Positions 54,922 through 58,197 of a DNA stretch of 64,000 nt are shown here, piece by piece (position 1 is the stretch's first letter; each line of letters starts with the position of its first letter). A model generated the notes under the pieces. The model made no database searches and was not told the DNA's origin. It worked only from the letters and a program-made list of their open reading frames with translations. The DNA comes from Clostridium sp. (GTDB taxonomy: Bacteria; Bacillota; Clostridia; Acetivibrionales; Acetivibrionaceae): NCBI GenBank assembly GCA_012517995.1, contig JAAYTS010000144.1, positions 23,879-87,878 of the forward strand, read 5' to 3'. The position numbers were made by a program, and so were the translations under genes.

Positions 54922-57384
54922 TTAAAAATTAAGAGCATTTAAGCTTTTGTAAAGAAATGAATTTTCAATATTTCTTTTTTGTTTATGAGTATCCAACATA
55001 TTTATAACCACTCCATATTTACCGTGTAATTCACTTTTTAAAAAGGATAATTCATCAAAAATCTGAATAATTTTTTTTGCTTTAAAATAATTCATATTGA
55101 TGCCATATTTTATTGATAAAAAATCTGAAAAAGCAAATAAATTATCTATAACAAAATTCTTATCATAATTTGCTTTTAGGTGTTTATAAACAAAAACCAT
55201 CTCCTGCCTGTTAGGAATAACGCTATCTTTGTTAAAATTGAAATTTATTTTATTATAAATATAAATTTTACTTAAATCAATACTATTTAATACTTTATTT
55301 AAATATTTCTCACAAAACCACTGTCCATATACTATTACTTTGTCAAATTCTGACACATCCAGTTTGTAAGGATGAGGATTTACTAGTATATGCAAATCAG
55401 AATTGTTGATTTTTATTTTTGAAAAACTCATAGAGTATTTTAAATTAAATTCAAAAGCACAGTTTTTAACCAAATTTATAATTTCTTTTACTGTATCAAT
55501 TGAATTTAACATAATCATCATTTTCTTTTTTTGTAAATTATAATTATATATATATTCTTTTAAATCCTTATTCTCTCCAATTAAAGAAATTTTTTTAATA
55601 TAATTTTCTTCTGTTGTATTTTCTTCAAAAGTTAAGGATTTATCAAGGCTAAAAAAGAATTTATTTTTCAACAAAACTTCAAAGGCGGGCTTTATATCTA
55701 TTACTTTTAGTTGTACGCTTTCTACATCCCTCCAAATGTTTATATCTAATGTGCACACAATGTCCAATATATCTGATTTTTTATATACCTTTGCTAAATC
55801 CCCCTTTTTAAAAGCAATTGCATCCACTTTAGAGCCACTATTTTCTACTTTTAGTTTTAAGTGACTTTTATCACTTCCTACTGCATTTATCTCGTTTATT
55901 TTTGCATTTTCAAATTTAAATAAGGGTTCTGGGTTATCAATACCAAAAGGTTCTAAAAAATCTAACTCACGTACATTTTCTAAAGTAATCTCTTCTATCT
56001 CTACTGTGGTATCTATTTTTATTTTCTCAGTATACTCAAATGTATCACTAAAGGAGCTGATATACTCATTTATGAGTCTGTTAAAATCATGAATTTTTTC
56101 TTCCTTTAAGGTCAATCCCACTGCCATTTCATGCCCTCCAAATTTCTCTAAAGTCTCTTTACAAGAAGTAAGGGCGTTAAATAAATTTATACCTTCTACG
56201 CTTCTTCCTGAACCTTTTCCTATTCCATCAGATACAGTAATTAATATACATGGCTTGTTGTATTTTTCTACAACTTTAGATGCAACTATTCCAATAACTC
56301 CCTGATGCCAATCTCTTCCTGATACCACCATAATGCTGCTTTTTTTAATATAAGATTCTTTTTCTATTTTACTTATCACTTCTTCAAAGATTTCTGTTTC
56401 TATTTCCTGTCTCTTTTTGTTATGCTCATTTAATTTAGAGGCAATTTCATTGGCTTTTACTTCATCTTCAGTAGTCAAAAGTTCTACCACCATTGCGGCG
56501 TCCCCAATTCTTCCTGCGGCATTAAGCCTTGGCGCTATTATATAGCCTATATCCCTGGAGGTGATTTTTTTGCCAAAAATCCCCACTTCTTTCATAAGTG
56601 ATTTAAGTCCTACATTTGAGGTATTGTTTATCTTTTTTATCCCATACTTAACTAAAATTCTGTTTTCGCCAGTTAAAGGCATGACATCTGCAATAGTTCC
56701 AAGGGCTACCAAGTCTAAAAATTCTAATTGATTGATTTGTATATTCATTTCAAAGGAAAGTGCTTTTATAAGTTTGAAAGCAACCCCAACTCCGGATAAA
56801 TTCTTGTGAGGGTACATACAGTCTGGTCTTTGAGGATTCACCAAAGCTTTAACAGAAGGCAGCTCTTCTTTACATTCATGATGGTCTGTAACCACCACAT
56901 CTATTCCTTTTTCCATCAACATCCCTGTTTCTTCTATAGAAGTAGTCCCACAGTCTACAGTAACAACCAAATCAACTTGCATATTTATAATTTTTTCAAC
57001 AGAACTTTGAGAAAATCCATATCCCTCTTCAAATCTATTGGGAATATAATAATCCACCCAGGCATTTTGTGATTTTAAAAATTTATATAAAACAGAGGTG
57101 CTGGTAACACCATCTACATCATAATCACCGTAAATCAATATTTTTTCTTTGTTTTCAATTGCTTTAGCTATCCTTTTTACAGCTAAATTCATATCTTTTA
57201 AAAGGAAAGGGTCATTTAAATCATCTAATGTTGAATTTAAAAATTTATCTATAGTTTCAGCATTATCCATCTTTCTGCTTAAAAAAATCTTTGCAAGAAA
57301 AACTGAAATCCCAGCTTCACAGGCCAGTTTCTCAGCTTTTTCAACAGGAACATAGTTTGTATCCCATACCTTTTTTATTTTCAC
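54922..57384 (-). CDS. recJ: single-stranded-DNA-specific exonuclease RecJ
   Basis: ILIYGDYDVDGVTSTSVLYKFL; VVVTDHHECKEELPSVKALVNPQRPD; APRLNAAGRIGDA; GGHEMAVGLTL. Confidence 0.95.
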   Translation of the reverse strand: MKIKKVWDTNYVPVEKAEKLACEAGISVFLAKIFLSRKMDNAETIDKFLNSTLDDLNDPFLLKDMNLAVKRIAKAIENKEKILIYGDYDVDGVTSTSVLYKFLKSQNAWVDYYIPNRFEEGYGFSQSSVEKIINMQVDLVVTVDCGTTSIEETGMLMEKGIDVVVTDHHECKEELPSVKALVNPQRPDCMYPHKNLSGVGVAFKLIKALSFEMNIQINQLEFLDLVALGTIADVMPLTGENRILVKYGIKKINNTSNVGLKSLMKEVGIFGKKITSRDIGYIIAPRLNAAGRIGDAAMVVELLTTEDEVKANEIASKLNEHNKKRQEIETEIFEEVISKIEKESYIKKSSIMVVSGRDWHQGVIGIVASKVVEKYNKPCILITVSDGIGKGSGRSVEGINLFNALTSCKETLEKFGGHEMAVGLTLKEEKIHDFNRLINEYISSFSDTFEYTEKIKIDTTVEIEEITLENVRELDFLEPFGIDNPEPLFKFENAKINEINAVGSDKSHLKLKVENSGSKVDAIAFKKGDLAKVYKKSDILDIVCTLDINIWRDVESVQLKVIDIKPAFEVLLKNKFFFSLDKSLTFEENTTEENYIKKISLIGENKDLKEYIYNYNLQKKKMMIMLNSIDTVKEIINLVKNCAFEFNLKYSMSFSKIKINNSDLHILVNPHPYKLDVSEFDKVIVYGQWFCEKYLNKVLNSIDLSKIYIYNKINFNFNKDSVIPNRQEMVFVYKHLKANYDKNFVIDNLFAFSDFLSIKYGINMNYFKAKKIIQIFDELSFLKSELHGKYGVVINMLDTHKQKRNIENSFLYKSLNALNF

Positions 57385-57444: not shown

Positions 57445-57451
57445 TACAAAA

Positions 57452-57471
57452 AGCCCGACTTTCATCGAGCT
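57452..57471 (-). terminator. rho-independent terminator downstream of rpsU, upstream of recJ
   Basis: Minus strand AGCTCGAT-GAAA-GTCGGGCT-TTTT: 8-bp stem (two G-U) with GAAA tetraloop and U tract. Confidence 0.8.
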
Positions 57472-57524
57472 TTTTTATATTTATTTTTAGAATTCCTCAC
57501 GATTCTATTTTCCGTGTTTGCCAC

Positions 57525-57632
57525 TCGGAAGTACCTTTCATATTTATCATCTATAAAATGGAAGACATTTCAAATATGATCACACCATTACCATCAAGGG
57601 TATTTACATCTTCTTACCTGAAGCACTTCCGA
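57525..57632 (-). ncRNA. candidate structured RNA between rpsU and recJ
   Basis: 12-bp closing stem (57525-57536 with 57621-57632), inner 8-bp stem (57538-57545 with 57572-57579), apical hairpin (57556-57560 with 57566-57570), loop complementary to 57609-57613. Confidence 0.5.
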
Positions 57633-57698
57633 CTTACCACACAATCATACTACTTCATATCACTTAAGAGACATTCCATTCGAAATACAGTTTCTTAC

Positions 57699-57875
57699 TT
57701 ATCTAAATTTTCTTTTTCTTGCTGCTTCAGATTTTTTCTTCCTCCTTACGCTTGGCTTTTCATAGTGCTCCCTTTTTCTTACTTCTGCTAATACGCCTGC
57801 CTTAGCACATTGTCTCTTAAATCTTTTTAGAGCACTATCAAGAGACTCATTTTCTTTTACCCTTATCTCAGACAT
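57699..57875 (-). CDS. rpsU: 30S ribosomal protein S21
   Basis: [58 protein letters not shown]; start moved inward from the ORF track. Confidence 0.97.
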
Positions 57876-58197
57876 GTATTTCCCTCCCTCCGATGGCAAC
57901 AATTGTGCTACACTGCTAATCTATATCCATAACATGGATTAAAATGGAAATGACTGAAATATAGCACACCTTATATTATATATTATTCTTCAAATTCGTG
58001 TCAACTGTTATTTTAGAAGCTTTTTGAAACTTCTATCATTGGGGTTTCGTAAGTTTTGCACAAATACACATATGAGAGGTTAATAGAAATATATACATGT
58101 TCATAAAAATATAATTAAACTTTAATAACGGAAATAGTTGATTTTAACTGAAACTATCTATAGCCAAAAAAGCAAAAGCTATTTTGGGATATAAAAA

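Follow-up and report, generated by a model that had tools for sequence, protein, structure and literature searches.

Long-range pairing within an mRNA has been described as a means of control in several bacteria. A close case is icaR of Staphylococcus aureus, where pairing between the 5'-UTR and the 3'-UTR at the Shine-Dalgarno sequence creates a substrate for RNase III (PMC3868564). The product of rpsU itself, bS21, sets its own level in Flavobacterium johnsoniae through an extended Shine-Dalgarno sequence (PMC9976891). Long-range mRNA structure also controls a ribosomal protein operon, infC-rpmI-rplT, in Escherichia coli (bL20 operator, reviewed in PMC10931766). A literature search returned no description of pairing between rpsU and yqeY, nor of a mechanism controlling bS21 in Clostridia. 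The locus compared below with these systems lies in a contig segment of 64,000 nucleotides, referred to as the window. The reading judged probable is that the wreck of a yqeY gene is kept as the 3'-UTR of rpsU for a cis-acting RNA element that once lay inside the yqeY frame order-wide, and that a long-range helix, H1, hides the rpsU ribosome-binding site and probably represses rpsU.

Layout and origin of the stretch

The preliminary description had placed a candidate structured RNA at 57445-57698 on the minus strand. The position between the rpsU stop (57699) and recJ was confirmed, as were a terminator at 57471-57452 and the lack of a plausible ORF. What the description overlooked is the yqeY origin of this DNA and a partner lying outside 57445-57698. 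The features needed in the following are listed in the direction of transcription:

57975..58004, minus strand: candidate rpsU promoter, TTGACA-18-TATAAT, proposed on its consensus match only (12/12 positions)
57886..57902, minus strand: rpsU leader segment UUGUUGCCAUCGGAGGG, the 5' partner of helix H1, running into the Shine-Dalgarno sequence
57882..57890, minus strand: rpsU Shine-Dalgarno sequence GAGGGAGGG, identified by sequence and conserved through the class
57699..57875, minus strand: rpsU, ribosomal protein bS21 (58 aa), identified by its ORF and order-wide conservation
57723..57732, minus strand: 3' end of rpsU, AUCUGAAGCA, possible partner of B1 (helix H2)
57452..57698, minus strand: decayed yqeY stretch, now the rpsU 3'-UTR
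57616..57632, minus strand: B1, UCGGAAGUGCUUCAGGU, which supplies the 5' arm of stem P1 and possibly pairs with the end of rpsU
57585..57600, minus strand: B2, CCCUUGAUGGUAAUGG, 3' partner of the rpsU leader and Shine-Dalgarno sequence (helix H1)
57525..57536, minus strand: 3' arm of P1, AGGUACUUCCGA, identical at 11/12 positions across the five species of the genus
57452..57471, minus strand: intrinsic terminator of the former rpsU-yqeY operon, the same one that follows intact yqeY in relatives
57384..54922, minus strand: recJ, downstream of the stretch and followed by apt, relA and dtd

The region from the candidate promoter to the terminator is presumably transcribed as a single RNA. Judged by homology and position, the stretch is a dead yqeY ending in the old operon terminator and no new stand-alone RNA. 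In an nhmmer search with a nucleotide profile of intact yqeY, the window remnant was the top match in the 64 kb (E = 4.9e-5), and the remnants of relatives were recovered with E = 5e-16 to 1e-3. The remnant sits directly after rpsU and before the shared terminator, and a single frame retains the traces MSLK, SEVLQV and NRIVRNS. Stops and frameshifts break the ORF in every frame and only about 250 nt are left; the stretch is therefore not a yqeY gene. As had been suspected, no known RNA family is represented: Rfam returned no match, the best sub-threshold score, 24.7 bits, falling short of the cut-off (115).

In neighboring genera the same site is occupied by yqeY, the usual partner of rpsU. 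A DNA search of the family located the stretch in the other four genomes of the genus, with very different end-to-end lengths. Other copies were sought in the genome, in plasmids and in phages, and none was found. The gene yqeY is present in 43/58 genomes of the order and absent from all five of the window genus, including elsewhere in the window genome. Compared with YqeY (GatB/YqeY family, Pfam PF09424), encoded by the gene adjoining rpsU, the DNA origin of the whole stretch is thus the same; what differs is that the protein is gone in the window genus, leaving fragments only. Loss of yqeY is a repeated process in the order, by frameshifts, stops and deletions directly after an intact rpsU (G010, G011, G012, G044 at L095, G055 at L100, and genus g1). 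Two further genomes, G045 and G050, were not recognized by nhmmer as carrying yqeY remnants and were assigned on position and leader complementarity, the assignment of G050 being weak.

Constraint on the remnant and on intact yqeY

Comparison of the five species of the window genus shows, as far as conservation can tell, a remnant under selection and not merely dead. Three segments are invariant, UCGGAAGUGCUUCAGG (16/16), CCCUUGA (7/7) and GGUACUUCCGA (11/11), against 11 of 53 fourfold sites of recJ (21%) in the same species. The 12-bp closing arms of the earlier fold, UCGGAAGUGCUU (57632-57621) and AGGUACUUCCGA (57536-57525), are present and kept in all five species though the intervening DNA measures from about 75 to 410 nt, which is more than chance would provide. 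Neither the inner UCAUAUUU/AAAUAUGA hairpin nor the apical one of that fold is kept in relatives, and the complementarity noted between UCUUC and GAAGA (57613-57609) does exist. In old remnants the recognizable part is the same block of ~60 nt (about codons 28-52), in agreement with the order-level profile. These results support the former suggestion of a minus-strand rpsU 3'-UTR RNA. Fold energy is of little help in this respect: the minus strand of the stretch folds at -61.4 kcal/mol (z = -3.9 versus shuffles) and the plus strand does better (z = -5.0), so that energy cannot tell the strand. Once the transcript is folded from its predicted 5' end, the fold obtained is a different, long-range one. 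The sequence GGGGG(G)TCTTCT was also observed in the decayed middle of the G004, G006 and G007 remnants (L048, L039, L050), and is missing in the window species and G005.

Constraint is already visible while the gene is alive. In 33 intact yqeY of the order, codons 31-37 (B1) and 43-49 (B2) show strong synonymous constraint, measured as codon identity in excess of codon usage; in 82 yqeY from other orders this excess is about zero. Codons 43-49 read CCCUUGAYGAYGAUGGUA, the complement of the rpsU leader UACCAUCG and of the Shine-Dalgarno GAGGG. Aspartate is encoded by GAT in 15/32, 21/31 and 32/32 cases at codons 45, 46 and 47, respectively (GAT/GAC 15/17, 21/10 and 32/0), and of the three, codon 47, the fixed one, is the only one whose third base has to pair, its partner being an A of the leader. 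A pyrimidine closes codon 43 in 30/31 cases and codon 44 in 32/33, and at codons 43, 44 and 48 the third position remains able to pair (Fisher P 3e-5 to 1e-15). H1 leaves two conserved features unaccounted for, the third base of codon 49 and the GCA of codon 32.

A search for a local consensus hairpin within yqeY codons 1-56 (RNAalifold) gave essentially none. Two other candidates were rejected: a hairpin of B1 with B2 (CUUCAGG/CCUUGA), which CTC codons disrupt in several species, and alternative reading frames across codons 31-49, which are closed in remnants. Two further observations concern intact yqeY. Codons 2-3 carry an unusually conserved UCCCUU order-wide, complementary to the rpsU Shine-Dalgarno sequence and often to that of yqeY itself, and codons 47-50 read GATGGTATAAT in intact relatives and resemble an extended -10 promoter (TGnTATAAT).

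Pairing of the rpsU leader with B2

Almost every species of the order carries the leader UACCAUCG-GAGGGAGGG, which the rest of the class sample lacks; the order-wide motif is UACCAUCGGAGGGAGGG, with UGCCAUCG... in the window. Its complement in B2 is laid out as YGAUGGUA facing UACCAUCG and CCCUU facing the Shine-Dalgarno GAGGG. When the leader was scanned exhaustively against whole yqeY, the leader octamer had a conserved site in B2 alone, with 6-7 bp in 75-81% of species; the next site reached 9%, none was kept in the class, and the Shine-Dalgarno repeats additionally matched the UCCCUU of codons 2-3. RNAalifold, run on the leader, rpsU and the 5' part of yqeY, produced the outer helix between leader/Shine-Dalgarno and B2 unprompted, and nothing for the class. 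Further matches of a pattern scan, in Rickettsiales/alphaproteobacterial MAGs (L051, L054, L055, L058, L060, L061, L064, L065, L067), belong to a dispersed repeat rich in palindromes, TCGGAAGTGCTTCAGGCTGTAGCTCCCCCCTTGAGGGGGAGC, that is unrelated to the rpsU locus.

In intact genes read in the codon register, 97.4% of the pair cells are paired, against 30-72% when the register is slid. A two-sided compensatory change in that register was seen for a single pair in one species, a number that shuffles reach as well; with near-complete pairing and almost no two-sided changes, a strict covariation count is uninformative by itself. The support for H1 in intact genes is accordingly conservation and wobble-compatible change, not classical covariation. 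Much of the H1 covariation, and several variant cases, need a second register three bases off. A test across 53 species nevertheless shows better pairing of a leader with its own B2 than with a swapped one (P = 0.00025), as do tests on 30 genus-level representatives (P = 0.005 and 0.001).

Individual lineages illustrate this partial tracking of leader changes, which together with the complementarity itself emerges from comparison across the order. Locus L085 combines UGCCAUCG with CGAUGGCG, as opposed to UACCAUCG with UGAUGGUA in its own genus. The variant leader ACAUCAUCG of G045 is matched over 9 bp by CGAUGAUGU at the dead-yqeY site, and GUAACAU is matched by AUGUUAU inside the dead copy of G055. 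G017 and G024 carry UAUUAUCG with CGAUGAUG, which the common leader no longer fits, and in G056 leader motif and remnant are both gone. Exceptions were met too: L083 keeps the leader and has lost B2, B1 and B2 are weakened in genus g8, and the pairing is short in G007 and G050. No convincing conserved helix of leader and yqeY was found in other families of Clostridia. Family f35 has a B1-like block and the leader GCACAATTG, without UACCAUCG and its partner. This GCACAATTG segment (window 57907-57899, minus strand) shows a degree of conservation close to that of the octamer and appears in f35 as CGCACAATTG; a partner was looked for and none was found.

In the window, H1 would join leader positions 57902-57886 to B2 at 57600-57585 in 16 pairs with one bulge (-19.6 kcal/mol), deletion of the GAYGA bulge of other species having made it longer. 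It is part of the minimum free energy fold of the full predicted transcript, from promoter to terminator, with a pairing probability of about 0.4, and is mildly unusual against shuffled 3'-UTRs (P = 0.02); the case for H1 is comparative and not a single-genome one. Stem P1 displays one C-G to A-U double change relative to intact or decaying relatives (G009/G010). It uses B1 and encloses B2 and so cannot nest with H1, and its duplex energy (-18.3) is close to that of H1; P1 and H1 may be two alternative states. A third helix, H2, would pair B1 (GCUUCAGG) with the end of rpsU (UCUGAAGC). In a scan of the rpsU 3' end with yqeY no other helix was kept in 75% of species or more; H2 reached 82% and is broken without compensation in some lineages, which leaves it a possible pairing.

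Proposed function and comparison with known systems

The proposed mechanism can be briefly summarized as follows. B2 would pair across ~300 nt with the upstream rpsU leader and the Shine-Dalgarno GAGGG, closing the mRNA into a loop. H1 would most likely lower rpsU translation, or expose the mRNA to cleavage; as it covers the ribosome-binding site, the natural reading is translational repression or an RNase III site as in icaR. The output of bS21 would thereby be limited, and perhaps fed back. P1, in the window genus, would hold part of B1 and might alternate with H1, and the element would persist as a 3'-UTR once yqeY dies. B2 outlives independent deaths of yqeY, which points to a role for rpsU and not for YqeY. 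We infer the formation of H1 in the cell, the repression of rpsU and any trigger; translation starting cotranscriptionally could outrun a partner ~300 nt downstream, and this counts against H1. A wider generalization is offered tentatively: a ribosomal protein control element would reside order-wide in the frame of the neighboring gene, whose death would leave a preserved 3'-UTR co-changing with the ribosome-binding site, some lineages gaining P1-type stems and possibly a two-state switch for bS21 autoregulation.

The alternative closest to repression is that the leader:B2 pairing stabilizes or circularizes the mRNA, or makes an RNase III site, and so acts on mRNA lifetime, in either direction, rather than on ribosome access. 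The icaR precedent makes such an effect conceivable by analogy; H1 covers the Shine-Dalgarno sequence, however, and would predict an effect on translation. We regard action through lifetime as rather unlikely. Less probable still is processing of the remnant into a trans-acting 3'-UTR-derived sRNA with other mRNA targets, the rpsU pairing being one of several or incidental. The structured, terminated 3' end would suit an sRNA, as would the P1 arms, which are invariant in a genus with dead yqeY and are not explained by H1, but what is constrained is a linear segment complementary to its own mRNA's leader, the partners co-change within one operon, and the genome has no second copy.

A plainly decaying pseudogene, in which two Ala-Val-Leu codon runs happen to form the stem (GCAGTACTGC being palindromic) and nothing is functional, is strongly disfavored. 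It would account for the clear yqeY homology, for the 11-bp arm complementarity already present in G009/G010 and for the visibly dying copies elsewhere in the order (G010, G012, G044). It would not account for the identity of CCCTTGA and of 27 arm positions across five species in which recJ fourfold sites are 21% invariant, for survival of one and the same block in old remnants, or for synonymous constraint on that block in intact genes. Equally improbable is a DNA element, namely a promoter internal to yqeY whose extended -10 (TGGTATAAT, codons 47-50) would be the reason for the codon conservation. At codons 47-49 the third bases do fit TGnTATA, yet the window genus has not retained this -10 (TGGTGTGAT, TGGTGATTA), no -35 is conserved, and codons 43-44, the leader match and the co-changes are left unexplained. 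Finally, an attenuating leader of recJ-apt-relA, proposed earlier for the stringent-response/tRNA-synthetase genes and suggested by a terminated stretch upstream of that cluster, can hardly be retained, given that the terminator is the ancestral rpsU-yqeY end family-wide, that conservation stops there and leaves the recJ side unconserved, that the conserved parts pair with the upstream rpsU leader, and that the next gene in relatives is not always recJ.

Control of rpsU by an element housed in yqeY, the preferred reading, would explain synonymous-site conservation in one gene by regulation of its neighbor. The several independent losses of yqeY would then represent natural knock-outs of the host gene in which the RNA function outlives the protein, a dead gene giving birth to a conserved 3'-UTR RNA, and control of bS21 in Clostridia would become open to experimental test.

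As in icaR (PMC3868564), a C-rich 3' segment displays conserved complementarity to the Shine-Dalgarno region of its own mRNA, implying long-range pairing. The gene is a different one, in most species the segment is contained in the coding frame of the downstream gene and becomes a 3'-UTR only where that gene died, and the effect on translation is here a predicted one. With F. johnsoniae rpsU (PMC9976891) the locus shares the gene and an unusually strong Shine-Dalgarno sequence; control is exerted there via bS21-less ribosomes and mRNA:16S pairing, and the part of that report considered here describes no long-range mRNA partner. The E. coli bL20 operator (PMC10931766) likewise subjects a ribosomal protein operon to long-range mRNA structure, but it involves another protein and a bL20-binding pseudoknot, with no decay of a coding gene.
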